From the NCBI GenBank assembly GCA_015232395.1, contig JADFZT010000003.1:1-64000 (forward strand): a DNA stretch of 64,000 nt, written 5' to 3'. A program made the position numbers and the translations under genes. The notes beneath the pieces are model-generated. The model was given only the letters and a program-made list of their open reading frames with translations, was not told where the DNA came from and searched no databases. The DNA comes from Magnetococcales bacterium. GTDB lineage: Bacteria > Pseudomonadota > Magnetococcia > Magnetococcales > JADFZT01. Positions 27 through 14,951 of this stretch are shown here, one piece after another. The stretch's first letter is position 1. Each line of letters opens with the position of its first letter.

Positions 27-1523
27 TCAAACTCTTCGTAGGCCTGCTCTCAGGCTCCCACGCACTCCTGGCCGACGACCATCTACTTTAAAAATGACAT
101 CCCCAGCCTGCAAACCAGCAACATCCGCCATGGAACCAGCCGTGACATCCTGGGCAAAGATACCTTCAGGATAAGGCGCTTGAACCTGCTGGGCAGTGTT
201 GCGATCCAGAGGCGCCAAAAGCGCTCCCAAACCACCAGCTGTGCCATCGTTCCAGGCAGCATTCAAACCAATCGCCCCACCTGGCCCAAAAGCAAAACCA
301 TCATTAAAACGACCCTGCCCCTGACCTTGACCTTGCCCCGCCCCCTGCCCCATATGCCGCTGGGGACCCTGCATGAACGCCACAGGATTGGCCGAAGGCA
401 AAATCTCATGACAACTCTCACACGGCCCCCGATCTTCATGAGGCAATGCCGCATTGGCAGCAATGGGCGGCGGAGGACGCGCAGCGATGGGACGGCCAGC
501 GGCTGTTTTGCCCAGGTTGGGTTCGATTCGGGGTAGCTCTACATTATCTTCAATAAACTCCATGGCTTTGGCGATGGAAACAGCAAACCCCACACCAGCA
601 AAAGCTTGGTTGGTGGTATAAATCGCTGTGTTAACGCCGATCACATAGCCTTTCAGGTTAGACAGAGGCCCACCGGAATTTCCACGATTGATGGCAGCAT
701 CGGTCTGGAGCAACCCCGAGTGCATGGTCCCACCAATATTGACCGCCTTGCGCTTGGCGGAAATAATGCCCTTACTCACGGTTTGGTCCAAGCCAAAGGG
801 CGAACCAATGGCAATCACCGGATCCCCAACATGGATCGGTTGACGACCTCCCAAAGGAGCAGGAATCAAAGGCTTGGCAGGCTCCACCTTCAAGATGGCC
901 AGATCCAAGGGTTCGTTCAAACGCAAAACATCCGCCACCAGACGTTGATTGCCCTTTTTGCCAAATACCGTGATAAAAACGTGCCGAGCCCCCTCCACCA
1001 CATGATAATTGGTCAGGATATGGCCCTGGGCAGTAATGATAATCCCGGAGCCGATACTCTCCATGGCGGTTTCAGCGCGGGGATTGGCAAAGTTAAGACC
1101 TGGAGCTTTGGGGTTTTCCGGTTTGATCTGGCTGGGTTGCGGCATGCTGGTGGCGCTGACGTTGACCACACTCGGCATGATCAGCTCAGCCACCGCCGAA
1201 AAAGGGCTGCGGCCCATCTCCCTGTTGACGCCATTGACCCCGGCGGGATTGACAGCAGCCACAGGAATCGCTACCGGAGTTGCTCCGGGACCGGCAAAAG
1301 TAGCCACGGGGACAGCTTCAGCACCTTGGGGAGCTTGGGAAGTAAACGGGGCAGGCTCGGTAAATCCAGTACGAAAATCGCTCGGCTTGATTTCGGTGGG
1401 CATTTCCAAAAAATAGGACATATACCAATAACTGCCGATCAACAGCAGTATGGCCGTTGCCGCTATCATGAAAAGATAGCCGAAACGATCCCCTTCCTGG
1501 TTTGGTTGAGAGTCGTCAACCAT
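27..1523 (-). CDS. mamE: Magnetosome protease MamE, magnetochrome-containing, frame-broken at the 3' end
   Basis: MamE is a membrane-anchored HtrA-like serine protease with haem-binding magnetochrome motifs that is needed for protein sorting and crystal maturation in magnetosomes. Seen here: a transmembrane segment at residues 15-35, a Pro/Ala-rich linker, and a trypsin-like domain at about 105-325 with the triad His174 (TNYHVV), Asp207 (LDLAIL) and Ser283 (GNSGGPL). One CXXCH motif (CESCH, 368-372) sits in the context GPCESCHEILP, typical of magnetochrome domains. A Gly/Gln-rich stretch follows (391-404) and then the start of a PDZ domain (from about 450). The open frame ends at 498 residues, while characterised MamE proteins are over 700. 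The last 20 or so codons do not look like PDZ sequence, but another frame (bases 1-45) reads EQAYEEFEAG, as a PDZ domain would. The start is ATG, 6 nt after the mamI stop. The mamI-mamE order matches known mamAB operons. Identity is confident; intactness is not. Confidence 0.9.
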   Translation of the reverse strand: MVDDSQPNQEGDRFGYLFMIAATAILLLIGSYWYMSYFLEMPTEIKPSDFRTGFTEPAPFTSQAPQGAEAVPVATFAGPGATPVAIPVAAVNPAGVNGVNREMGRSPFSAVAELIMPSVVNVSATSMPQPSQIKPENPKAPGLNFANPRAETAMESIGSGIIITAQGHILTNYHVVEGARHVFITVFGKKGNQRLVADVLRLNEPLDLAILKVEPAKPLIPAPLGGRQPIHVGDPVIAIGSPFGLDQTVSKGIISAKRKAVNIGGTMHSGLLQTDAAINRGNSGGPLSNLKGYVIGVNTAIYTTNQAFAGVGFAVSIAKAMEFIEDNVELPRIEPNLGKTAAGRPIAARPPPPIAANAALPHEDRGPCESCHEILPSANPVAFMQGPQRHMGQGAGQGQGQGQGRFNDGFAFGPGGAIGLNAAWNDGTAGGLGALLAPLDRNTAQQVQAPYPEGIFAQDVTAGSMADVAGLQAGDVIFKVDGRRPGVRGSLRAGLRRV

Positions 1524-1529
1524 GCTCTG

Positions 1530-1757
1530 CTACTCGTCCATCGGTCCGGCTTCACCCAAAACATCCCCACCCGGGGCAGAACTGTTTCGGCTCCCATCAC
1601 GCACCTTGGCCACTCCGGCTCCCAAAGCCACCATACCGAAAAGAATCAAAAAAATAGGCAAGACCCCCCGCAACACTTCGGCAACAGACCACCACCAGAC
1701 GGATAGTCCCCACAATCCCAGGGCCATGGCCACCAAGCCAAAAACGATATTAGCCAT
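1530..1757 (-). CDS. mamI: Magnetosome membrane protein MamI
   Basis: A 75-residue protein with two hydrophobic helices (about 3-25 and 29-50) joined by the short segment VWWWSVAEVLRG, then a polar tail. The length, the GLWGLSVWWWSV core and the position directly upstream of mamE match MamI, a small integral membrane protein required early in magnetosome membrane biogenesis and mineral nucleation in Magnetospirillum. ATG start with GGAG 7 nt upstream. It is the first gene of the magnetosome cluster visible here: mamH, which usually precedes mamI, is absent and gspE of a type II secretion system lies upstream instead. Confidence 0.87.
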   Translation of the reverse strand: MANIVFGLVAMALGLWGLSVWWWSVAEVLRGVLPIFLILFGMVALGAGVAKVRDGSRNSSAPGGDVLGEAGPMDE

Positions 1758-2068: not shown

Positions 2069-3601
2069 TCAATCTTCCTGACTCACCCGCAACACCTCCT
2101 TGGCCGTCGTGCGTCCCTCCTGAAGCAGACGCAAACCATCATCCCAGAGGCTTTTGGAGAAGGTTCTGGCATGAGCTGTGAGGCTATGCTCCCCGGCACC
2201 GTCATGAATTTTGCCCCGCATGACATCATCCAAAATGACCAACTCATAGATGCCGCTACGCCCCACAAATCCGGTCCGGGCGCACACATCACACCCTTGG
2301 GAACGATAGAGGGTAGATATCTCTTCGACGGAGACCCCCAAACTTCTCAATTCGGCATCACTTGCTGGATGAGGAGTTTTGCAGTGGGGACAGAGAAGCC
2401 GTACCAAGCGTTGGGCCAACACCCCCAAGAGACTGGAAGAGAGCAGATAAGGCTCAACCCCCATATCCTTGAGCCGAGCCACCGCCCCGATAGCGCTGTT
2501 GGTGTGCAGGGTGGAAAGCACCAAGTGACCCGTCAAACTCGCCTGCACCGCAATGCGGGCGGTCTCCAGATCCCGGATCTCCCCCACCATGACGATATCA
2601 GGATCCTGGCGCAAAATAGCCCGCAACCCCCGGGCAAAAGTCAGATCCACCTTGGTGTTGACGTGGGTCTGACCAATCCCTTCCAGGTTATACTCGATGG
2701 GATCTTCAACGGTCATGATGTTGCGGCTGGTTTTGTTGAGCCGCTTGAGGATGGCATAAAGAGTGGTGGTCTTACCGGAACCGGTGGGGCCGGTGACCAG
2801 AATAATCCCGTTGGGCTTGCGGATCACCTGATCCAGCTGGTTACGCATCTCCTCCGGCGTACCCAACTCTTCCAGATCGAGCCTGCCGGACTGTTTATCC
2901 AACAAACGCATCACCACCCGCTCACCATAGGCAGTGGGAATGGTGGAAACCCGCACATCCACCGGACGACCGGCAATCTTGAGAGAGATGCGGCCATCCT
3001 GGGGCAGGCGCTTTTCAGCAATATCCAATCGGGCCATCACCTTGACCCGGGAGGCGATCAGAGGAGCCAAAGCCCGCTTGGGCTCCAGCACCTTGCGCAA
3101 CACCCCATCCACCCGAAAACGTACCGACAAACGGTCTTCATAAGGCTCCAGGTGAATATCCGAAGCGTTCAACTTGACCGCCTCAGTTACCAAGGCGTTA
3201 ATCAAACGAATAATGGGAGCGTCATCAGCGCTTTCGGCCAGATCCTTCGGCTCTCCCAACTCCTCCGCCACCTGGACCAGATCCAGCTCCTCATCCAGCT
3301 CTTCCATCTCCTGGATGGCCTGGGAGGAGCCTTTTTCAAAAGCCTTTTGCAAATGATCATCGAACAGATCGTTCTCCACCCGTTCGATCAAGAGGGGTTT
3401 GCGAAAACAGCGGCGCAGCTCCACCAATGCAGGCAGAGAAGCATCCTCACGGCAGAGTACCCGCAAGGCTCCCTGGGCTCCCGGCTGCACCAATACCCCG
3501 TGACGCTTGGAAAAACCGAAGGAGAGGCCGTGATCCACCGAGGCCTCTACCAAAGCCTCCTCCCCCTGGCCACTACCAGTCTGCATAATCCTGGTATCCA
3601 T
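2069..3601 (-). CDS. gspE: Type II secretion system ATPase GspE
   Basis: The cytoplasmic hexameric ATPase that powers pseudopilus assembly in type II secretion. About 510 residues, with the bipartite DIHLEPYEDRLSVRFRVDG region of the GspE/PilB family, Walker A GPTGSGKTTTL, an Asp box (TVEDPIEY), Walker B region PDIVMVGEIRD, and the CPHC...CDVC tetracysteine zinc element near the C-terminus that marks GspE. ATG at 3601 has the purine-rich GGAGAGAGG upstream. An upstream TTG (3643) would add 14 unlikely residues. It overlaps the end of gspD by 29 nt, suggesting translational coupling. The genes normally downstream (gspF, gspG and so on) are not next; mamI follows. Confidence 0.92.
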   Translation of the reverse strand: MDTRIMQTGSGQGEEALVEASVDHGLSFGFSKRHGVLVQPGAQGALRVLCREDASLPALVELRRCFRKPLLIERVENDLFDDHLQKAFEKGSSQAIQEMEELDEELDLVQVAEELGEPKDLAESADDAPIIRLINALVTEAVKLNASDIHLEPYEDRLSVRFRVDGVLRKVLEPKRALAPLIASRVKVMARLDIAEKRLPQDGRISLKIAGRPVDVRVSTIPTAYGERVVMRLLDKQSGRLDLEELGTPEEMRNQLDQVIRKPNGIILVTGPTGSGKTTTLYAILKRLNKTSRNIMTVEDPIEYNLEGIGQTHVNTKVDLTFARGLRAILRQDPDIVMVGEIRDLETARIAVQASLTGHLVLSTLHTNSAIGAVARLKDMGVEPYLLSSSLLGVLAQRLVRLLCPHCKTPHPASDAELRSLGVSVEEISTLYRSQGCDVCARTGFVGRSGIYELVILDDVMRGKIHDGAGEHSLTAHARTFSKSLWDDGLRLLQEGRTTAKEVLRVSQED

Positions 3602-5735
3602 TGGCACCTCTCTCCACCCCCTCCTGCTGGGGAGATGGAACAAAGCTCTCCGAATCGGTTTCGGTCATGGCGCGGGTCAAGCCGGCTCCAGAATCAGCGG
3701 GCAAGGCTTCCGGCACCATCGGCTCTGTATCAAGGCGTTTATCCAGGCGTCCAGCCACCTCCTCAGCCTGACTGAACAGACCTCTGGCGGAATTATCGAT
3801 ATAGCTGTTCAACTCCGGTAACAGGGGACGATTGCGATCCATCTTCATCCACCCCCCCAGGGAAGGGGTATCGTTTTGCTGGGATCGGATATAGTCATAT
3901 TTGGACTGAGTCAGCAAAAACCCATCCTGCTCGTTGCGCAGGATGGTGGGCCGCAAAAAAACCAGTAGATTGGTCTTGACCTTGGTGTGGGTATCATAGC
4001 GAAACAGCCCTCCCAGCAGAGGTAGATCCCCCAAAACCGGCACCTTGTCGGCTGTTTCCACCAGGTCGTCCTTGATCAGTCCCCCCAACACCAATATCCG
4101 GGTGTGATCCACCATCACCACAGTCTTGATGGAGCGGGTGTTGGTCACCACATCCGCCGTACTGACCGTGCTGGGAGTCACCACCGAATCCTCAAATTCG
4201 ATATTCATGCGAATGGCATCCCCCTCGTTGATCTGGGGGGTTACCTTGAGAGAAAGCCCAACATCCTCCCGGGTGATGGTTTGGAAGGGGTTGCCCGCAT
4301 TATCCGTAGAGCTTGAGGTGATGAAGGGCACGTTCTGACCGACAATAATCTCCGCCTCTTCGTTGTCCATGGTGACCACGGTGGGCGTCGATAAAATATT
4401 GGTGGAGGTATCCTTGCGCAGGGCACGAATCAAGCCTGCAATGTGGGACGCATCGGTAAAACCGATGGAAAGCCCTTCCGGATCAAAAGAGACGCTGGAG
4501 GAGCCCTCACCCAGCTGGGCCGCCAGAGTGAAAAGCCCGGTGCCCGACCCGGAAAAGTTGGTCCCGGCGACAATTCCCTGCTCATCCCCCGAGCCCCCCA
4601 GGATTCCCCACTGGATACCCAATTCATCGTCCATCCCCGTAGAGACCTCAGCCACGACCGCCTCCACCTGCACCTGGGCGCGGCGGATGTCGAGTTTGCG
4701 GACCACATCCAAAAGGGTGCGGTTCATCCGGGGTGGGGCTGAAATCACCAACGCATTGGCAGATTCATAGGCCTGGACATTGACCACCACATCACTTTTG
4801 GCAGCCTGCCCCTTCTTGGCTTTTTCCTTCTGGACAAAATCCCGGCCCACATTGTTGAGCACCGGGGCCAGATCCTTGGCGTTGGCAAAGCGGAGATAGA
4901 TCACCTGGGTGTCCCCTGTAATTTCCACCGGGGTGTCCAGATGGGTGATGATGGCCCGCAATCGCAAGCGGGCACTCTTATCCCCACCGATCAAAATGGA
5001 GTTGGTGCGGTCATCCGCCACCAGCATGGGTTTGTCGTCCGAAGATTTATTCTTGGAACTGGTGTTGGATTTGAGCAGTGATCCCAACACCCGCACCAGA
5101 TCAGCTGCCGAGGCATGTTCCAGGCGCACCACCTCGATCTCACCACTGGAAGGACGGTCCACCCGACTAATGATCCGGGCGATTCGCCGCACCCCCGAAG
5201 CATAGTCCGAAACAATCAACATGTTGCTGGGACTGTAGGCTGCGAGATGACCCTTGGGGGTAATCATGGGACGCAACACCGCAACCAGGCGGGAGGCGTC
5301 CACATGCATCAGTTCAAACACCCGCACCACCACTTCATCCCCCCTGGCCTGGGCGATCTCCAGCTGGGAGGTGAGAGGCATACCGCTATATTTGATCCGG
5401 GTCTCCGGAACAATCTTGATGGCCCCATTGGTAGGGACCGTGATCAAATTGTGAACTTCCAGAATGGAGAGAAAGACCTGATAAAGCTCATCCACACTCA
5501 AGGAGTCCGCTGAAACCACCGTCACCTTGCCTTTGATACCGGGGTCGAGAATAAAATTGCGACCCGTCGCCTGGGAGACAGTCTCAATCAGGGTGGTGAT
5601 ATCAGCCCCCTTCAAATTCAGGGTATAGCTGCCGTCGGCAGCCGTCGCCTGCATGGGAGAAGCAACAATCAACCACCCCAACGCCAAGCCCAAAAGCCAA
5701 CCAGGGAAGCCGCTGAAATATGAGGGTTTTGCCAT
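3573..5735 (-). CDS. gspD: Type II secretion secretin GspD
   Basis: Outer-membrane secretin channel of the type II secretion system, about 720 residues. A signal peptide (LLGLALGWLIVASPMQATAA) is followed by an N0 domain (YTLNLKGADITTLIETVS...), N1-N3 ring domains, and the secretin core ending in VPVLGDLPLLGGLF and NLLVFLRPTI. A roughly 90-residue C-terminal extension may interact with a pilotin. The ATG at 5735 has AGGAG 6 nt upstream and is preferred over a TTG at 5753. It lies in the transcription order gspC-gspD-gspE; the gspC-gspD spacing of about 180 nt leaves room for an internal promoter. Confidence 0.94.
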   Translation of the reverse strand: MAKPSYFSGFPGWLLGLALGWLIVASPMQATAADGSYTLNLKGADITTLIETVSQATGRNFILDPGIKGKVTVVSADSLSVDELYQVFLSILEVHNLITVPTNGAIKIVPETRIKYSGMPLTSQLEIAQARGDEVVVRVFELMHVDASRLVAVLRPMITPKGHLAAYSPSNMLIVSDYASGVRRIARIISRVDRPSSGEIEVVRLEHASAADLVRVLGSLLKSNTSSKNKSSDDKPMLVADDRTNSILIGGDKSARLRLRAIITHLDTPVEITGDTQVIYLRFANAKDLAPVLNNVGRDFVQKEKAKKGQAAKSDVVVNVQAYESANALVISAPPRMNRTLLDVVRKLDIRRAQVQVEAVVAEVSTGMDDELGIQWGILGGSGDEQGIVAGTNFSGSGTGLFTLAAQLGEGSSSVSFDPEGLSIGFTDASHIAGLIRALRKDTSTNILSTPTVVTMDNEEAEIIVGQNVPFITSSSTDNAGNPFQTITREDVGLSLKVTPQINEGDAIRMNIEFEDSVVTPSTVSTADVVTNTRSIKTVVMVDHTRILVLGGLIKDDLVETADKVPVLGDLPLLGGLFRYDTHTKVKTNLLVFLRPTILRNEQDGFLLTQSKYDYIRSQQNDTPSLGGWMKMDRNRPLLPELNSYIDNSARGLFSQAEEVAGRLDKRLDTEPMVPEALPADSGAGLTRAMTETDSESFVPSPQQEGVERGANGYQDYADW

Positions 5736-5915
5736 CTGAACTCCTGGGCCCAAACCTTTGCCCGAGGGTATGTTAATAATGACCGTCCCACGCCCTTGAC
5801 GGCGTCAAATCGTCCTCAAATCCACACAGAGGGACACAATCCCCCAGCATTGCAAACGATTTCGCCTTGCCAGGAACCACAACCTGGCAATTGTTATCAC
5901 GCCCTGGGGCTGGAA

Positions 5916-6962
5916 TCAAAAAGTGAAATTGAATGATCGGGTCTTTTTGCCGCGTTTTACCTTGAGTTGCAAGTCGTTCTCTTCAGTCAAGCGGTTGAGC
6001 ACTTCCATTCCCTTCAGAGGATCGGTCATTTTGACCCCGTTGACGGAGGTGACCACATCACCCGCTCGCAAACCAAATTTTTTCATCAAATCGGGCCGCT
6101 GCCCAGGTTCCAGTTGAAACCCCATGAAACGGCCATCCTGGTAGGAAGGCTCCACCTGGACCAGTTCGAGGAGGCTTTCAGGGTTTTCCGCAAACCGCTG
6201 GCGCAAATCATCCAATTCCTCATCTGACAGGATATCCTGTTTATCGTCCCTGCCCTTCCTTTTGCCCCTCTTTTTACTTTTCTTTCTTTTATCCTTTTTG
6301 GCAGGCTGCTTTTTAGCCTTTTTCAATCCGTCCATCACCAGAGGTTCTCGGGGCAGGCGCAGGGTTTCGAATCGGCCACCACGCGCCAGAATCACCCGGT
6401 CGGCATGAATAGCGCTCACCTTGGCATTCCCCGGCAGGAGATCGCCGATCCCGTAGGGTTTTTCCCCCTCGGAAGGGCTATCAATCAAGGCCAGCCCCTC
6501 ATCCCCTTCCCCATCAAAGGCCACAATCCCAAGCAGGGTCAGATCCAGCTTGGTATCCGGGGCGTCCACCGGGGTAGCATTTTTCTTCCTGGCGGCAGAC
6601 TTGGGTTGATGGGCCTGACCGAAAAGATGCCAATCGGCTTTTTTGATGCGTTTTTTGGATCGGTTTCCAGATTTTTTTGGGTTGTTTTCAGGATCATCCA
6701 ACACTTCGGAGAGGGTCATGGCACCCGTGGTTTCCATGCCGACAGCCTCCCCCACCCAGGCCCAGGTCAAGCCCGCCAGATCGTGGCACAGCACCACAAT
6801 CAGTACCACGTTGAGCAACAGGGCCAAAGGACGCAACCACCCTCCCTCCAGCCCCGAAGTGACATCACGGCCCACGCTGCCAGCAGATGCAACCCCGGCT
6901 AATGAGGCTTTCCGCCAGCCAATCCGGCGCACACTCGCCAATGCCCCCTTGCCAAAACTCAC
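5916..6962 (-). CDS. gspC: Type II secretion inner-membrane protein GspC
   Basis: Inner-membrane clamp that connects the secretin to the inner-membrane platform. One transmembrane helix (LLLNVVLIVVL), the homology-region start WHLFGQ, a periplasmic HR domain (LDLTLLGIVAF...), a long Lys-rich linker (KKAKKQPAKKDKRKKSKKRG) and a C-terminal PDZ domain (GLRAGDVVTSVNGVKM). Length about 348 residues, slightly long for the family because of the basic linker. GTG at 6962 with GGAGGG upstream fits best; a TTG at 7007 would extend it by 15 residues with no ribosome site. The first gene of the gspCDE run. Confidence 0.88.
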   Translation of the reverse strand: MSFGKGALASVRRIGWRKASLAGVASAGSVGRDVTSGLEGGWLRPLALLLNVVLIVVLCHDLAGLTWAWVGEAVGMETTGAMTLSEVLDDPENNPKKSGNRSKKRIKKADWHLFGQAHQPKSAARKKNATPVDAPDTKLDLTLLGIVAFDGEGDEGLALIDSPSEGEKPYGIGDLLPGNAKVSAIHADRVILARGGRFETLRLPREPLVMDGLKKAKKQPAKKDKRKKSKKRGKRKGRDDKQDILSDEELDDLRQRFAENPESLLELVQVEPSYQDGRFMGFQLEPGQRPDLMKKFGLRAGDVVTSVNGVKMTDPLKGMEVLNRLTEENDLQLKVKRGKKTRSFNFTF

Positions 6963-7428
6963 GAACACCCCTCCAACTTTCGAATAGATGGGACCAGCTT
7001 GACCCAAACCGATTCATTATGCCACAAGGCATCAAAAAAACCCATCCCCTGTGCACCCTTCCCAACAGCAGGCCGGGAATGGCTGGCAGTAAAACAGGGA
7101 TACCTTACATTGAGAAAATACCGAAGTGTGGGCTGGAATGTAAAAACAACAGGTAGGATCTCTCCCCGGGATCCCCCCCCTTTTTTTGCGACCCTTGCCC
7201 CTGAAAACACCAAAAAAGCACCCTACCGAAGGTAGGCCACGCCTCCATATTACATGAAAGATACCAGCAGGCTGCAGAAAAAACGCCAACCATCCCCAAG
7301 AGCTGCGACCAAGCCCGGGAGTCCACCCAATGTCCACCAGCTCCAGTAAATAAGCCGCCTGGCTTCCCACCCAGTTCACAAGAGTGACAACAGACCACTC
7401 TCCGACAAAATTCAGCAAACCATCCCCT
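6963..7428. other. Region between the group II intron and gspC (3' exon side)
   Basis: No convincing gene on either strand. Overlapping ORFs on the minus strand here have no recognisable domains and low-complexity composition (runs of Trp, Gly and Cys). As the 3' exon of the group II intron, it should continue the intergenic sequence that lay after the dsrP terminator before insertion, and it should contain the gspC promoter. Confidence 0.5.
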
Positions 7429-9311
7429 ATCGGGTAGGAGGCGGGGTCACCCCCGCCGACCTCCCACACCACCGGGCATACGGTTCCGTACCACGACGGT
7501 TCATGTAGCACTTTGAAGTCGTTGCAATTGACCCAGCAGCGACACGAGTCCAAGCGCATTAAAGTATCGCTTCGGAAAAGCAGCATTCATGTGGCTGGCT
7601 CCAGCGTTCCACCACGGACCGCGTTGATTCTTGGCCGACCACCATGCTCGCTTTTCCTTCAGCCCTCGTTTCATCAGGTTTCTGGCCCTCGTGAAAGGAC
7701 GTTTCCATTGTCGCCAAAGAATGCAGCGGAGTTTCCTCCGTAACCACATATCCAGCGCTTCGAAGATGCCCTTCACCTCGGCGAGCTTGAAATAGTTCAC
7801 CCAACCTATGAGGGTCGGTCGAAGATCCGCAACAAATCGGCCAAGGTTGCGCCCCCGACCCTGGCAAAACGCTTCCCGGAGCTTTGCCTTCAGACGTTGC
7901 ACACTCGCCTTCGCCACCTTCAGGCGGGGTTTCATATGCCACGTCAGGCTATAACCCAGAAATTTACGCTTCCAGGGACGAGCAACCGCGCTCTTGTCCT
8001 GATTCACCTTGAGCTTCAACTTTTCCTCAAGATACCGTGTGAGTGATGCAAGAAGGCGTTCCCCAGCCTGCTTCGACGCAACATAAATGTTGCAATCATC
8101 CGCATACCGGCAGAACAGATGCCCCCTACGCTCAAGCTCCTTATCCAGGTCATCCAACAAAATGTTGGACAGCAAGGGGGATAGTGGACCGCCTTGCGGC
8201 GTACCCTGAGTGCGTTGGGATACCACACCCCCTTCCATCATCCCGGCCTCCAGGTATCGACGTATCAGCTTCAATACCTTTTGGTCCCCAATCTTACGGG
8301 CTACCCGCGACATCAAAACATCATGGTTAACCCGATCAAAGAATTTCTCCAGATCCATGTCTACAACCCAGCGCCGACCTGATGCCACATGTGATCGGGC
8401 TTGTCGTACCGCCTGATGAGCGCTACGGTTGGGCCTGAATCCATAGCTTGAGCTGGAAAATCCTTCGTCGAATATGGGTTGCAACACCTGATTCAACGCC
8501 TGCTGTACCAGACGATCCAAAACCGTCGGAATGCCCAACATACGCACCCCTTTCCCGCCGGGCTTCGGTATCTCAACCTTACGCACCGGTTGCGGTTCAT
8601 ACCGACCTGACAGCAGTTCCTCCTTGATGCGTGGCCAATGCTCCTTGAGATAAGCTCCCAGACCCGAAACGGGCATACCATCCACTCCCGCCGACCCCCG
8701 GTTGCTCTTCACACGATGCAAAGCCAACTTCATATTCTCGCGTTCGACCACTGCCTCCATCAACTGACAACTCTTCCGGTTCGGTTCTTCTCTCCTTGCC
8801 GTGACGTTTGACGCACCATCCAAGGGCCATAGCGGATTCCGTCCGTTGCCTCCCTCGGCGGTTCCGGGCATCTCAGACCGGACATCTGCTTCTCCTGTCG
8901 TCATCGAAATTCGAATCCCTTACCACGTACTACACGTTCGGGCCTTCAGTTCGGTCGAAAACCTACTATGCCCTCTGCTGACTTCTGCACGTCCATCCCG
9001 TCATCTCTCGATGGCGGTAGCACAAGGCAGACATGCAGATCTCCCCGGGTAATGCACACGCACCTTCGCGCTTATGTCCGCCGCATATACGTTCATGCCT
9101 TCCGCACAGGTTTCGGACTTTGAAGATATTGGCCTCCTCATCCGGCATGACCGCCTTGTATGCGATTCCTGTTCGTCAGACCAGCGCTTTGCCTTCGGCT
9201 TCCTTCAGATTCCAACTCACGATGGACACCCTTGCCGTTCGGCTAACAGTTCCCCCTGTCGGGCCTGTAGAGGACTTGCACCTCCAAGTACGTGCGCCCT
9301 GCCGGGCGCAC
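7429..9311 (-). mobile_element. Group II intron (bacterial class C type), complete
   Basis: A ribozyme-type retroelement on the minus strand. The 5' end reads GTGCGCCCGGC from 9311, matching the GUGYG intron start. The 3' end reads CCTACCCGAT, ending at 7429 (AY end). A domain V-like hairpin (ACCGTCGT ... CGGTGGT, closed around GTACGG-AA-CCGTAT) lies at about 7468-7500 and domain VI at 7429-7467. The maturase ORF occupies domain IV. The element lies 1-2 nt downstream of an intrinsic terminator stem-loop with its T run, the insertion preference of class IIC introns. Ends are set by motif, not alignment; 1-2 nt uncertainty. Confidence 0.85.
7501..8904 (-). CDS. ltrA: Group II intron reverse transcriptase/maturase
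   Basis: 467-residue intron-encoded protein that helps splice and reverse-transcribes its host intron. Reverse transcriptase blocks are evident: GVDGMPVS, PQPVRKVEIPKPGGKGVRMLGIPT, VDMDLEKFFDRVNHD, QGTPQGGPLSPLLSN and the catalytic CRYADD. A group II maturase (X) domain follows (TLIGWVNYFKLAEVKGIFEALD). There is no HNH endonuclease, as usual for class C. The reading frame is intact, so the intron may be active. ATG at 8904; the stop abuts domain V. Confidence 0.95.
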   Translation of the reverse strand: MTTGEADVRSEMPGTAEGGNGRNPLWPLDGASNVTARREEPNRKSCQLMEAVVERENMKLALHRVKSNRGSAGVDGMPVSGLGAYLKEHWPRIKEELLSGRYEPQPVRKVEIPKPGGKGVRMLGIPTVLDRLVQQALNQVLQPIFDEGFSSSSYGFRPNRSAHQAVRQARSHVASGRRWVVDMDLEKFFDRVNHDVLMSRVARKIGDQKVLKLIRRYLEAGMMEGGVVSQRTQGTPQGGPLSPLLSNILLDDLDKELERRGHLFCRYADDCNIYVASKQAGERLLASLTRYLEEKLKLKVNQDKSAVARPWKRKFLGYSLTWHMKPRLKVAKASVQRLKAKLREAFCQGRGRNLGRFVADLRPTLIGWVNYFKLAEVKGIFEALDMWLRRKLRCILWRQWKRPFTRARNLMKRGLKEKRAWWSAKNQRGPWWNAGASHMNAAFPKRYFNALGLVSLLGQLQRLQSAT

Positions 9312-9460: not shown

Positions 9461-10657
9461 TCAAGGATTCCAGGGGACGTCCCAACCCTTGGGAACCACG
9501 GCTTTCTCAGGAAGAAGACGGAGAAAGCGAATGCCCAGAAGGTAGATCAAACCTGCAATCGCTACCCCACCCAGTCCCAACACCAACTCGGGAAGTGTGG
9601 GAGAGTAGGTGGCGGCCATACCGTCTTGAAAGACGCTCGACACCTCGTAGCCGGGAAACATGTTGAAGGGATAGGATTGGCCAGCGATCAGAACATGGGC
9701 CACAAAGGCAAACTCACCGATAACCGCCAGGGCCGAACCCCACATCACCCCTTTGACGGTATTGCCCAGAGTGCTGTTAAAAAGAATTCCCAGAGGCGCC
9801 ACAATACCTGCCAAAATCACCCCTCCCCAATAGAGCCACGCCAAGGGACCGGTGAGAATCCAGGTCTCTACATCGTAAAACGCCGGGGAGTAAAACTTGA
9901 CGAACTTTTCGACGAAGAGAAAATAGAGCACCAGCAGCAGGAAAAAGATGAGGGCGTTGCGCAGCCCAAACACCAGTTTTTTATCCATCTCCAACCCGGC
10001 TGCCTTGTAGGTGGCTACCAGGAGCAGGATGGAAACCGCTGTGCCCGAAGAGAGCGAAACCGCAATGAAGGTGGGGCCGGTGATGGCGGAGTGGAACACC
10101 TCACGGGCGTGGATGACGCCGAAGATGGATCCGGTACCGGTGGTGAGCACCAACCGCCAGAAAAAAGCTGCACTGCCGACGACCTTGGTATATTTCTGGG
10201 CTTCAAACATGGTCCAGAGGTAGAGCAGACAGAGCATCATGAACCCGGTGTAGAGGATCACGTTCCAGGAAAACATGGAGCTGAAGTTGTAGTACATCAT
10301 GGCGAGCAGCATTCGGTCGGGCCGCCCCAGATCAAAAAGCAGCACCGCCAAACCGCCGATCAAAAGAGCTACGGCCAGATAGGCGGAAAAACGACCGAAC
10401 TGCTTGAACTGCTTGGCCGCAAAAATGGTGGACATGGAGCCCAGGTTAAGCGCCCCGGAGGCCATCACCAACATGGCAATGGCAAAGATGTGGGGCAACC
10501 CCCAGACCACCTTGTTGTTCATTCCGGTGACGCCGTGGCCATAAATTTCCACATAGAAAAAGGCCGCAGCCGCCATTCCTACAAAACCGCCCAGGATGAT
10601 GAGCAGTGTGTAAAATGCGGGGAGGCGCCCCTCAACGGTGGTGAATTCGCTGATCAT
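9461..10657 (-). CDS. dsrP: Sulfur-oxidation membrane subunit DsrP (NrfD family)
   Basis: Polytopic quinone-interacting subunit of the DsrMKJOP transmembrane complex, 398 residues with about ten hydrophobic helices (for example LPAFYTLLIILGGFVGMAA and NALIFFLLLVLYFLFVEKF). NrfD/HybB-type family. It follows dsrO by 13 nt and is the last gene before a strong intrinsic terminator. DsrP exchanges electrons between the quinone pool and the periplasmic DsrJO subunits. Confidence 0.92.
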   Translation of the reverse strand: MISEFTTVEGRLPAFYTLLIILGGFVGMAAAAFFYVEIYGHGVTGMNNKVVWGLPHIFAIAMLVMASGALNLGSMSTIFAAKQFKQFGRFSAYLAVALLIGGLAVLLFDLGRPDRMLLAMMYYNFSSMFSWNVILYTGFMMLCLLYLWTMFEAQKYTKVVGSAAFFWRLVLTTGTGSIFGVIHAREVFHSAITGPTFIAVSLSSGTAVSILLLVATYKAAGLEMDKKLVFGLRNALIFFLLLVLYFLFVEKFVKFYSPAFYDVETWILTGPLAWLYWGGVILAGIVAPLGILFNSTLGNTVKGVMWGSALAVIGEFAFVAHVLIAGQSYPFNMFPGYEVSSVFQDGMAATYSPTLPELVLGLGGVAIAGLIYLLGIRFLRLLPEKAVVPKGWDVPWNP

Positions 10658-10670
10658 GCTATACCGCTCC

Positions 10671-11402
10671 CTACAATCCCTGGTAGTGCACGTGGGGTTT
10701 CAAACCGAGATCCTCACGGATGGCCTTGGTGGCAACTTCCCGCACCCGCTTGGAAATCTCTGAAGTGGGATCGTTGAGATCCCCAAAGAGCATCGCCCCT
10801 TCAGATGCCTTGTCACAGGCTTCCACACAAGCCGGGGCTAATCCTGCATCCACTCGATGGACACAGAAGGTACATTTTTCCACCACACCCTTGCCTCGAA
10901 TCGGCACGTCCGGATTACCGTCAGCAGGCAGTTCAGTGGGAAAATAGACCAAAGAGCGGGCCTTGTAAGGGCAGGCAATCATGCAGTAGCGACACCCGAT
11001 ACAACGGTGTTTATCCACCAGCACGATACCATCCTTGCGCACGAAAGAAGCCGCCGTTGGGCAGACGTGTACACAGGGTGGGTTTTCGCAGTGGTTGCAG
11101 AGAACCGGCAGGCTAACAGTGGGACGCCGCCCCTCTTTGTCGCGAATTTCAATCTTGCGGATCCAGTGTATATCCCGATCAGGATCCCCAAAGAGGGGTA
11201 CGTTGTTTTCCTTGCGGCAAGCATCGGTGCAGGCGTTGCAATCGCTTGAACATTTGTTCACGTCGATCAGCATCGCCCAGCGGCTGCTGCCGGAGGCTTC
11301 GGTGGTTTGTGTCGCTGCGATCAGGTGGACACCCGGGGCCAGCGCCACACCCGCGGCAACGGCTCCTCCCAGTCCAAGAACCGATCTTCTGTCCATCGTC
11401 AT
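10671..11402 (-). CDS. dsrO: Periplasmic iron-sulfur protein DsrO
   Basis: Ferredoxin-like electron carrier of the DsrMKJOP complex, 243 residues. The N-terminus has a twin-arginine signal (MDRRSVLGLGGAVAAGVALA) for Tat export of the folded protein. Four cysteine groups follow: CSSDCNACTDAC, CNHCENPPCVHVCP, CIGCRYCMIACP and CTFC...CVEAC, enough for several [4Fe-4S] clusters. Two in-frame ATGs exist; the second (11396) is better placed 8 nt after AGGA. Transcription order dsrJ-dsrO-dsrP is conserved with other sulfur oxidisers. Confidence 0.93.
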   Translation of the reverse strand: MTMDRRSVLGLGGAVAAGVALAPGVHLIAATQTTEASGSSRWAMLIDVNKCSSDCNACTDACRKENNVPLFGDPDRDIHWIRKIEIRDKEGRRPTVSLPVLCNHCENPPCVHVCPTAASFVRKDGIVLVDKHRCIGCRYCMIACPYKARSLVYFPTELPADGNPDVPIRGKGVVEKCTFCVHRVDAGLAPACVEACDKASEGAMLFGDLNDPTSEISKRVREVATKAIREDLGLKPHVHYQGL

Positions 11403-11423
11403 GTTCCTAAACCCCGTTGGTGG

Positions 11424-11771
11424 TCATTTGGGATAGTTGTGGCACTCAAAACAGTCCGGTTTCACACCGACATAGGTGTGACAGCGGTCGCAAAACTGCT
11501 CCCGGCTGGTGTGGCAAGTCCTGCAGTTGAGCAGACTCTCATCGGGAGCGCGATAACCCTCACGCACGGTGCGATCCCGCTTATGTTTCAGATAGTCCAT
11601 GTGATTGCGTCGCATCCAGGCGGTATCTTCGACGCAAGCCTCACCCTTGGCTTTTTGCAGAGTGACGGGAGGGCCTTCCTGGCCATGGGCGGGTTGCGGC
11701 AAAACAGCTGCAAACCCCACCACAATGAAGACGATCAATAGTGCTGCCGGTCGAAACCAAGCCACTGCCAT
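11424..11771 (-). CDS. dsrJ: Triheme cytochrome c DsrJ
   Basis: Small periplasmic triheme cytochrome of the DsrMKJOP complex. Three CXXCH sites are present: CRTCH, CDRCH and CFECH. The upstream Cys in KGEACVED corresponds to the cysteine known in Allochromatium DsrJ to act as an unusual axial haem ligand. A signal peptide (FRPAALLIVFIVVGFAAVLP) precedes it. The start is ambiguous: ATG 11771 sits too close to its GGAGGA, while GTG at 11765 has that same site at ideal spacing. The larger open frame runs back to 11876 but through an inverted repeat and is unlikely to be coding. Confidence 0.9.
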   Translation of the reverse strand: MAVAWFRPAALLIVFIVVGFAAVLPQPAHGQEGPPVTLQKAKGEACVEDTAWMRRNHMDYLKHKRDRTVREGYRAPDESLLNCRTCHTSREQFCDRCHTYVGVKPDCFECHNYPK

Positions 11772-11824
11772 TCCTCCGATTGCGGGAACGATCACGAAAA
11801 CCCCACCGTCATGGCGGGAACAGG

Positions 11825-11862
11825 AGAGATGGCCGACTTGAGCGGACCCAAGTCGGCCATCT
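11825..11862. repeat. Perfect 15-bp inverted repeat between dsrH and dsrJ
   Basis: GAGATGGCCGACTTG (11825-11839) and its exact reverse complement (11848-11862) around an 8-nt loop. It would form a very stable RNA hairpin in the dsrEFHJOP transcript. No T run follows, so it is more likely an mRNA processing/stability or attenuation element than a full terminator. Confidence 0.75.
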
Positions 11863-11885
11863 CTTCGCAACGTCAACCCTTGGGC

Positions 11886-12179
11886 TTAAAGCCAAGCGTG
11901 GGTCGTATGCTTTTCCACCAAGTCAACGAAGCCAGCATAGTCGATGACCTTGATGCCGGGGATCAGGTTGGTCAACCCCCGGGCTTTCAGGTCTGCGCTG
12001 ATGGCGTAGACTTCATTTTTGGCCATGGCCTGCTCGATGAGACCAACCATGGAGGTACCGGCAATGGCGCCGTTGACGCCATCCTCCAAAAGCAGAAGGA
12101 CATCCCCGGCATTCATAAAACGAAGGCAGCTTTCCAGCGAGCCGTTCCCAAAGGGGGATTTATTGACAGTATGGAGCAT
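11886..12179 (-). CDS. dsrH: Sulfur-transfer protein DsrH (TusB family)
   Basis: 97-residue subunit of the DsrE2F2H2 complex that relays persulfide sulfur to DsrC. The conserved Cys18 (SLESCLRFMNAGD) and the TusB fold signature VLLLEDGVNGAI are present. It follows dsrF by about 105 nt. In Allochromatium the next genes would be dsrC, dsrM, dsrK and dsrL; here dsrJ follows directly. Confidence 0.92.
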   Translation of the reverse strand: MLHTVNKSPFGNGSLESCLRFMNAGDVLLLLEDGVNGAIAGTSMVGLIEQAMAKNEVYAISADLKARGLTNLIPGIKVIDYAGFVDLVEKHTTHAWL

Positions 12180-12284
12180 TCTCGTTCTCTCCTACTCTTA
12201 CGCTTGATGATGTGAACGCAATTCCTGGCCTGCGGGGCCTGGGAATACCAGCCCCTGAAACATCAGGTTCTGGAGTACAACCCC

Positions 12285-12686
12285 CTAAAAAACAAGGATA
12301 TTGTGCTGCTCGCCCATCATGGCGGCGATCTCTTCGGCCTCCACAACCTTGGGCTTGACCGGCTCTTCGGTGTCTTCGTCCTCACCGATTACCAGCAGGT
12401 CATCTTCGGTCATGCCGCGATCTTCCATGGATTTGCGATCGACATACATTTTGCTGATCTCATAGTCCACCATCACGCCATAAGTAGCCGCGAAACCCTT
12501 GATACCCAGCTCCTTGGTGTCCTGACCCTGTTTCAGGGCAAAGACGCCATCGTCCATGAACACCACCGAAATATCGGCGTCATAGGCGGCCATGATGAGC
12601 TTGACCTCCAGCCCCTCATAGACATAGATGGAGCCGTGGGGAGGCTTTCGCACGGTGAACATGATTTTTTTGACTTCTTCCGACAT
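12285..12686 (-). CDS. dsrF: Sulfur-transfer protein DsrF (TusC family)
   Basis: 133-residue DsrF-like subunit of the DsrEFH hexamer. N-terminal KKIMFTVRKPPHGSIYVYEGLEV and FMDDGVFALKQGQD are characteristic. It has no cysteine, consistent with a structural rather than sulfur-binding role. The acidic tail GEDEDTEEP is slightly longer than usual. It starts 15 nt after dsrE. Confidence 0.92.
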   Translation of the reverse strand: MSEEVKKIMFTVRKPPHGSIYVYEGLEVKLIMAAYDADISVVFMDDGVFALKQGQDTKELGIKGFAATYGVMVDYEISKMYVDRKSMEDRGMTEDDLLVIGEDEDTEEPVKPKVVEAEEIAAMMGEQHNILVF

Positions 12687-12701
12687 CTTGACAGCCTCCC
12701 A

Positions 12702-13058
12702 TCAATCTCCGAAAACCACCATGCGTTCGGCCTCAATGGCCATCATGGTGAGTTGACCAAGCCCCGAAATCCGCACATTGGGTACCAACACATCGTCGAC
12801 AATACCCCGGCGCTTGGCCGCAGCAATGCAAACAACAATGTCGATCCCCTTACCGCCCAACTCCGACCAGCGGTTGGCGATGTGCCGATCATCCTGGGGG
12901 GGCTCCATCAGCTTGGTGACGTTGTACACGCCATCGTGATAGAAAAAGATCCCTTGGATTGTGTGCCCTTTTTCCAGCGCTGCCAGGATAAAATTGTAGG
13001 CGCTGTCCGATGCTTCGTGGTTGTAAGGGCCCTCATAAATGCATACAGCCAGTTTCAT
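12702..13058 (-). CDS. dsrE: Sulfur-transfer protein DsrE (TusD family)
   Basis: 118-residue sulfur-binding subunit of DsrEFH. Cys77 in IDIVVCIAAAKRRG corresponds to the active-site cysteine of Allochromatium DsrE (Cys78). Presence of dsrE together with dsrF and dsrH is a recognised marker for dsr systems working in the oxidative direction. First gene of the dsrEFHJOP unit, preceded by a good promoter at 13195-13222. Confidence 0.94.
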   Translation of the reverse strand: MKLAVCIYEGPYNHEASDSAYNFILAALEKGHTIQGIFFYHDGVYNVTKLMEPPQDDRHIANRWSELGGKGIDIVVCIAAAKRRGIVDDVLVPNVRISGLGQLTMMAIEAERMVVFGD

Positions 13059-13194
13059 GACGATACCATCCTCCGCAAAACGCCGTTGACCGATCTTGAC
13101 GTGGTTCCCGACTTGCCACCCCGCCGCCTCGACATCAGCCCAATACCGGGTCCTTCATAGAGTACATTACGAAATGTTCATATTAGAATGAGGT

Positions 13195-13222
13195 AATATA
13201 AGGTTCCTGGGCGGGGTGTCAA
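13195..13222 (-). promoter_or_regulatory. Sigma-70-type promoter of dsrEFHJOP
   Basis: TTGACA (13222-13217) and TATATT (13200-13195) are separated by 16 nt on the minus strand. The -35 box overlaps the dsrN stop codon. Immediately downstream is an A/T-rich stretch containing ATTCTAAT and an ATTAC...GTAAT pair that could be an operator. Confidence 0.7.
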
Positions 13223-14610
13223 GTGACGCCAACCCCCCTTTGCCAAAAATTCACCAGGAAGGTGGCCCACTGGGGCGCGCCATCCACATGAATATGGGCG
13301 TAAGAGGCCAAAACATTCCGATAAATCAAGCCATCCCGAACACCATCCACCCCGGATCCACGTTCAACCCGGTAGGCAAATTTAACTTTATCCGCACCCT
13401 TGACTACCTGAGAATAGTGAAACTCATGGCAGCGTATTTTTTTATCCTTCCCAGGCCAGGGCAAAGCACCGGTACCAGCGATCTCCATGTAACCATAGCC
13501 CTGAGGCCGTCGGTTCATCTCCACCTCTATGGGTAGAGCCCCAACCATCTGGGCAGCACGACCTTCCCAGTGAATTTTTTCCGCCAACACCATCAACCCG
13601 CCACACTCGGCATAGACTGGAAACCCCGCCTCCACAGCCCCTTTGATCTGCCCCATGAGCGCCCGGTTGGCGGAGAGGGATTCCATAAACATTTCCGGAA
13701 ACCCCCCGCCGATATAGAGCCCATCCACAGGGGGCAGGGCGGAATCCTTGAGAAAGGAGAAGGGAATCAGCTCAGCGCCAGCAGCCCGTAGCGCTGCCAG
13801 ATTTTCGGGATAATAGAAGGAAAAGGCCTGATCGGTGGCGATGGCGATACGCACCTTGGGGGGTGTAGCCACCGGCAAAACAGGGGAATTGGATGCCCCG
13901 GGCCAGCTGTAGGCGCCAGCCCCCTTGGCCAAATCCAAAATCTGGTCGAGATCGAGATGGCGGGCCACATGCTGACCGATGGCGGTAACCCGACTGGCCA
14001 GAGATTCCTTCTCCCCCACGGGCACCAGCCCCAGATGGCGCTCATCAATCACCACTTCGGAACTTCTGGGCAACACCCCCAACACCGGCACCCGGCTGTA
14101 TTGCTCCAGTACCCGGCGGAGTTTGTCCTCCTGACGGGGGGTGGCGACGTTATTGAGAATCACTCCACCAATCTGCTCCCCGCCGGGAAAATCCAGATGC
14201 CCCAAAACCAAAGGGGCGACACTGCGGGCCATCCCCTGACAATTCACCACCAGCAATATCGGACAATCCAACGCCTTGGCCAGAGCCGCCCCACTGTCTG
14301 AGCCGTCCATCTCCTGGCCATCGAAAAGCCCCATGTTGCCTTCGATCAGCGCCAGTTCGATCTCCTGGCTATAGCGGTGAAAATTGCGCTGGATACCCTC
14401 CCGGCCCATGACAAAAAAATCGAGATTATGGCACTCTCGCCCCCCGGCAACCCCCAGCCAGCGGGGATCGATATAGTCGAGCCCTTTTTTAAAAGTGCCT
14501 ACTTTCAAGCCCCGACTGGCAAAAGCCGCCGTCAGACCAATGGAAACCATGGTCTTGCCAGAGCTTTTCCGGGGAGCTGAAATCAATATGCGGGGAACCT
14601 GCCCGTTCAA
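13219..14610 (-). CDS. dsrN: DsrN, siroheme amidase-type cobyrinate a,c-diamide synthase homologue
   Basis: CobB/CbiA-family glutamine amidotransferase that, in dsr clusters, is thought to amidate sirohaem for DsrAB. About 463 residues: an ATP-binding N-terminal domain (ILISAPRKSSGKT P-loop, LIEGNMGLFDG) and a class I glutaminase C-terminal domain with nucleophile Cys in YAECGGLM and downstream His in HEFHYS. TTG at 14610 preceded by AAGGA gives MNGQVPRILISAP; the ATG at 14781 would add 57 residues unlike the family. Located upstream of dsrE, whereas in Allochromatium dsrN follows dsrP. Confidence 0.88.
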   Translation of the reverse strand: MNGQVPRILISAPRKSSGKTMVSIGLTAAFASRGLKVGTFKKGLDYIDPRWLGVAGGRECHNLDFFVMGREGIQRNFHRYSQEIELALIEGNMGLFDGQEMDGSDSGAALAKALDCPILLVVNCQGMARSVAPLVLGHLDFPGGEQIGGVILNNVATPRQEDKLRRVLEQYSRVPVLGVLPRSSEVVIDERHLGLVPVGEKESLASRVTAIGQHVARHLDLDQILDLAKGAGAYSWPGASNSPVLPVATPPKVRIAIATDQAFSFYYPENLAALRAAGAELIPFSFLKDSALPPVDGLYIGGGFPEMFMESLSANRALMGQIKGAVEAGFPVYAECGGLMVLAEKIHWEGRAAQMVGALPIEVEMNRRPQGYGYMEIAGTGALPWPGKDKKIRCHEFHYSQVVKGADKVKFAYRVERGSGVDGVRDGLIYRNVLASYAHIHVDGAPQWATFLVNFWQRGVGVT

Positions 14611-14951
14611 TGGTGCGATCCTTGAAAAGTGCGGTTTACCTCTTGGCCGTCGCCGAAGGTGCGCCCTGAAACGCCATTCGTCAACCCCGCATGACCACAA
14701 TCCCTGCGGAATTTGTTTGGTGCTTGGTTTCCATTGAATTATTCTGACGCAATAGAGGAACGCCCCGTAGGGCCATTCCATTGTGGACAGGGTGGTTTTT
14801 TTCCTTGTGGACAGGGTGGTTTTTTTCCTCGTCAGGATCCTTCGGTTGATTAAAAATAGCGACCATCAAAAACAATCGACTTGATCCAATCGGACACCCA
14901 TAGCCATAGATGCCAGCGTGGCGATCCGCCCCCTTTGAGGAATATGCCTCC
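14611..14951. other. Divergent intergenic region dsrN/hemH
   Basis: Contains a perfect tandem duplication of a 24-bp unit (14781-14804 and 14805-14828). Promoters for both divergent genes should lie here; none stands out. The minus-strand reading frame through it is probably not translated. Confidence 0.5.
14781..14828. repeat. 24-bp perfect tandem duplication
   Basis: The unit TTGTGGACAGGGTGG plus TTTTTTTCC occurs twice head to tail with no mismatch, upstream of hemH. Probably a replication-slippage duplication. Confidence 0.9.

Follow-up and report, generated by a model that had tools for sequence, protein, structure and literature searches.

A second, diverged mamI–mamE pair beside gspE in a draft genome of a Magnetococcales bacterium

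The window analysed here, a stretch of 64,000 nucleotides of contig JADFZT010000003.1 of a Magnetococcales bacterium (GCA_015232395.1), begins with a second copy of the magnetosome genes mamI and mamE (mamI2 and mamE2), which stands beside gspE and is not the edge of the canonical magnetosome cluster. Taking all parts of this reading together, we consider it probable that the diverged pair, directly downstream of gspC–gspD–gspE, is the product of a duplication inside its own lineage and most likely forms the start of a cassette between gspE and gspF.

Identity of the mamI and mamE genes

Profile searches showed that the mamI and mamE named by the original prediction, which was made from the sequence alone, are both real and lie on the minus strand, which the prediction had not specified. 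The mamI copy (1530–1757) encodes 75 residues with two hydrophobic helices and a WWWS motif, was aligned with 10 relatives, and scored 85.4 bits against the NCBIfam model NF040963 (MamI), above the curated cut-off of 80. The same model matched 45 of the 48 genomes of Magnetococcales and 0 of 14 control genomes. For the open reading frame at 27–1523 the top model was MamE (NF040960, E 4e-99, 333 bits), with DegP/HtrA lower at 233 bits. The score of 333 bits is below the NF040960 cut-off of 800, as is that of the mamE on contig C6 of the same genome, because both genes are cut by contig ends.

The mamE2 sequence (78–1523, minus strand), truncated by the contig end, encodes an N-terminal hydrophobic segment, a trypsin-like protease, one magnetochrome and the first PDZ domain. 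The protease domain (Trypsin_2, PF13365; 633–1052, residues 158–297; 103.3 bits) contains the catalytic His-Asp-Ser motifs TNYHVV, LDLAIL and GNSGGP, as read in the translation, and the PDZ domain, located by domain profile search at 75–188, is itself cut by the contig end. The CXXCH motif that had been claimed for the protease was found as CESCH in a magnetochrome (MCR) domain at 393–470 (PF18509, 39.9 bits, cut-off 30.4). In the tree, MamE2 sits inside MamE, apart from the DegP/HtrA proteins of the same genome (support 100/99). Contig C98 was considered as a third mamE locus and rejected; it carries ordinary DegP/HtrA proteases.

The contig end at bases 1–78

Base 1 of the window is base 1 of contig C3 (153,073 bp), and mamE2 is consequently cut off. 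Genuine mamE2 sequence stops at about base 78: bases 1–77 are 77 bp of mamM (plus strand, about codons 13–38), running opposite to mamE and matching the mamM of contig C54 exactly until the two diverge at base 78. The final residues of the open reading frame 27–1523 (about GRRPGVRGSLRAGLRRV) are these 77 bp of mamM read backwards, so neither its length of 498 aa nor its stop codon belongs to a natural MamE. Other contig ends of this assembly also overlap exactly over 77 bp (C1:1–77 with C126:1–77, C17:1–77 with C40:1–77, and C9:1–77 with C46:3896–3972), and the end of contig C83 shares one with mamB of C54; bases 1–77 are therefore an assembly-graph overlap (k = 77). Other genomes in the order are reported to derive from amplified DNA of magnetically collected cells (PMC5955933).

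The mamM/mamE2 join is probably chimeric, and possibly a real inversion. Under the latter explanation, which we hold to be the less likely of the two, one breakpoint would lie in mamE2 and the other in a copy of mamM that agrees with the C54 gene at all 77 bases, and mamE2 would be broken. The geometry, with mamE2 forward and then mamM reversed, fits such a junction, C3 shows no branch for a native continuation of mamE2, and inverted duplications of mamAB operons occur in Terasakiella SH-1, PR-1 and MV-1 (PMC6819731). However, the sole mamM found is intact, the exact 77-bp overlaps are general in this assembly, and the end of C54 is formed by 71 bp from contig C96, part of an unrelated gene for a sugar acyltransferase, from which it follows that non-homologous joins do occur; a reading of that end as mamK was rejected for the same reason. 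Since MamE2 is incomplete, it may be a pseudogene.

Magnetosome genes elsewhere in the genome

The genome (G000) is a draft of 170 contigs with a completeness of 99.06% and a contamination of 1.21%. Contig C6 (108 kb) ends in mamH–mamI–mamE, its mamE being cut within the second magnetochrome, and contig C54 carries one complete set of mamM, mamO, mamP, mamA, mamQ and mamB. The genome has a single mamQ and two mamK, one on C36 and one on C5. Contig C83 carries the 3′ end of a second mamB (mamB2), which shares 77 identical bases with mamB of C54 and then shows 8 differences in the next 105, together with a mamS (197.8 bits, cut-off 200). Within this single genome, duplicate mam genes lie apart from the main cluster. 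Hence, the gene identities, their order and the magnetotactic origin stand as originally predicted, whereas the view that the window starts at the edge of the canonical cluster does not, given the arrangements on C6 and C54. Magnetosome genes do appear to follow mamE2 to the left, as the mamM tail at bases 1–77 and the second mamB–mamS on the gspF side (C83) suggest.

It is unlikely that C3 is nevertheless the edge of the main cluster, its mamI–mamE leading into mamM–O–P–A–Q–B of C54 and the mamH–I–E of C6 being the satellite. Such a layout is favoured by the position of the edge k-mer within the mamM of C54 and by the fact that C54 reaches only 0.9 kb beyond mamM on the upstream side and includes no mamE there; moreover, inverted amplification chimeras tend to join neighbouring sequence, which counts in the same direction. 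On the other hand, it is C6 that has the usual mamH–I–E order, the C6 MamE has at least two magnetochromes, like the mamH-linked copies of the duplicated relatives in family f6, and the downstream flank of C54 is its own and differs from that of C83.

Two further genes adjoin the magnetosome genes of C54: one for an HSP70/DnaK-type protein of 847 aa whose long tail is acidic and repetitive (L008:7567–10110), and one for a ZorB-like protein after mamB (L008:10177–11478). Dozens of copies of one family of short repeats are spread over the genome, upstream of mamM (C54:34299–34985), around C3:50691–53801 and on many other contigs.

The type II secretion operon

The minus-strand order is gspC, gspD, gspE, a 311-bp spacer, mamI and mamE. 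The gspC gene (5916–7007) matched TIGR01713 with 115.1 bits (cut-off 101.6), the secretin gene gspD (3573–5753) scored 532.9 bits (cut-off 351), and gspE (2069–3643), the only copy in the genome above its cut-off of 630, scored 689.7 bits. The spacer between gspE and mamI (1758–2068) occurs once in the genome, and a repeat-driven misjoin at this point is therefore unlikely. The search for promoter-like matches on the minus strand of 1500–2300 returned three, where 0.5 were expected.

The only above-cut-off gspF of the genome lies on C83, where one strand reads mamB2 3′ end, mamS, ZorA-like (1994 aa), ZorB-like, gspF, G, H, K, L, M and N (gspM and gspN were named from their position and from matches in G030). 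Thus, each half of the genome's single type II secretion operon borders on mam genes, at the place where relatives have gspE beside gspF: in ten of these (G001–G004, G006, G013, G039, G040, G041 and G043) the two genes are consecutive within 500 bp, as read in the DNA for several. Magnetosome genes at both broken gsp ends were found in G000 only, among the genomes seen, and a search resting on gspC and gspD matched no gsp genes beside the mamI loci of relatives.

Both gspE (C3) and gspF (C83) are flanked by mam genes, and no contig bridges mamE2 and mamB2. The simplest model would place C3 and C83 in one cassette, with the content mamI2–mamE2–...–mamB2–mamS–zorA-like–zorB-like, that would separate gspE from gspF in the genome's one type II secretion operon. 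Against this, gspE and gspF also stand apart in G026, G029, G030, G042 and G044, with unrelated genes beside them and no magnetosome genes between, and a split operon need not equal one insertion. We regard as quite improbable a further reading in which the mam genes entered the operon, share its transcript and link a magnetosome protease and a ZorAB-like motor with the secretion apparatus. We did not find the gspE-side location of mam genes described in the literature, and the titles and abstracts of papers on magnetosomes and type II secretion present no such arrangement.

The genes between mamS and gspF (L134:7606–15026, C83) encode a ZorA-like protein of the MotA/ExbB type (E 4e-19) and a ZorB-like protein (E 2.5e-33), both related to a motor of phage defence and here encoded within magnetosome clusters. 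Weaker ZorB-like matches stand beside mam genes in G006, G017 and G018. According to the translations, the gsp operon of the window is adjoined by a reverse transcriptase open reading frame of the group II intron type (7501–8904), and positions 9461–14781 contain genes resembling dsrP, dsrO, dsrJ, dsrE/F/H and a cobB/dsrN-type gene, which point to sulfur oxidation.

Duplication history of the pair

The MamE tree placed the C3 and C6 copies as sisters (support 99/97), and mamE2 is therefore a lineage-specific duplicate, with some caution on the sister placement, as MamE2 has a branch of 0.73 against 0.36 for the C6 copy, twice the length. The two proteins share 68% of their residues over the protease domain, and the DNA is about 70% identical. 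For this domain dN was 0.24 and dS 1.0, and for the two mamI copies the values were 0.20 and 0.92, which fits purifying selection acting on the copies taken together, an average that would be compatible also with recent decay of one of them. A stretch of 77 bp at the magnetochrome (415–491, minus strand) is identical at 76 of 77 positions to the start of C6, i.e. to the second magnetochrome of its mamE, compared with about 70% elsewhere in the gene, suggesting gene conversion between the mamE copies.

A draft of 170 contigs, and magnetosome genes that vary between strains, could accommodate a second pair from another strain mixed into the bin, but this origin is very improbable and was set aside on contamination and synteny: the contamination is 1.21%, C3 bears the only above-cut-off gspE and C6 other housekeeping genes, the two contigs are long (153 and 108 kb) with unlike flanking genes, and the identity of the copies is uneven by gene (about 92% for the 3′ end of mamB after the 77 identical bases, about 70% for mamE).

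Duplicates and magnetochrome number across Magnetococcales

More than one stand-alone MamI above the cut-off was present in six of the 48 genomes (G000, G004, G009, G010, G011 and G042). The mamE gene is doubled as well in G004, G009, G010 and G011, with two CXXCH motifs in the main copy and one in the other; in G000, the mamE of C3 has one, and that of C6 has one complete motif and the start of a second. The main copy of G004 was defined by the mamM downstream of its two-CXXCH copy, and neither of its copies has a mamH neighbour. The duplications of G000, G004 and family f6 fall in separate lineages in the protease tree, and those of G004 and f6 also in the C-terminal tree, which for these two gave no support for an ancient paralogy of one- and two-magnetochrome forms common to all satellites. 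A single magnetochrome in the additional MamE, against at least two in the main copy, is seen in three duplications of separate origin; this is a lead drawn from few cases, and single-copy genomes with one magnetochrome also exist.

A search of genome contigs with the MamI alignment returned 37 loci, nearly all from Magnetococcales, and a search of genome contigs with the MamE protein returned no matches. On C6 (29132–30670; L007:9132–10670), a MamI-like N-terminal domain (NF040963, E 4e-13) is joined to a putative sulfate exporter of the YeiH type (PF03601). The fusion occurs in 8 of the 48 genomes (G000, G005, G006, G008, G009, G010, G015 and G039), stands just before mamX-like and mamZ-like genes in G006, and may bear on the origin of MamI.

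Discussion

In Magnetospirillum, formation or maturation of the magnetosome membrane requires MamI; MamE, a protease bound to the membrane, carries magnetochromes that bind haem and promote the growth of crystals. By analogy, MamI2 would act in the magnetosome membrane like MamI. MamE2 would be an HtrA-type protease anchored in the membrane and binding haem at its one magnetochrome, beside a C6 MamE with at least two magnetochromes. We infer that mamI2–mamE2 is expressed and functional; most likely, the second pair would do the same job in the same compartment, with MamE2 adding protease activity and a single haem site. The mamE-like gene of the magnetotaxis islet (MIS) of Magnetospirillum magneticum AMB-1 is transcribed (PMC2818848), and satellite copies can therefore be active.

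The C3 pair resembles mamI and mamE in the mamAB operon of Magnetococcus marinus MC-1 (G037) in gene order, protein families and the combination of protease, magnetochrome and PDZ domains. However, the single mamE of MC-1 lies downstream of mamH and has three CXXCH motifs, whereas the C3 gene is an additional copy, lies downstream of gspE and has one such motif. The AMB-1 islet likewise has a second mamE outside the main cluster; it contains mamK-like and mamQ-like genes, with mamI unmentioned in the text of PMC2818848, whereas C3 has mamI2–mamE2 with gspE adjoining, and its origin is independent. In the satellite mam clusters of the Magnetococcales genomes nwagbin5, nJSWbin3 and nJSWbin1 (G009–G011), a second mamI–mamE, also with one magnetochrome, is followed by mamK, a short open reading frame, mamM (G010) and mamQ; gsp genes were not matched in the vicinity. 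In Terasakiella SH-1 and other Alphaproteobacteria several mam genes occur twice, mamI and mamE included, as here (PMC6819731), but these duplicated mamAB operons belong to another class of bacteria, and the text of that paper contains neither Magnetococcus nor Magnetococcales. The duplication of magnetosome genes is thus already known; the present case lies outside the main cluster and has gspE beside it.

The results indicate that the duplication of mamI–mamE known from Alphaproteobacteria recurs in Magnetococcales. The pattern of one versus two magnetochromes makes the role of magnetochrome number testable, and the location on the gspE side means that magnetosome and secretion genes may share transcription.
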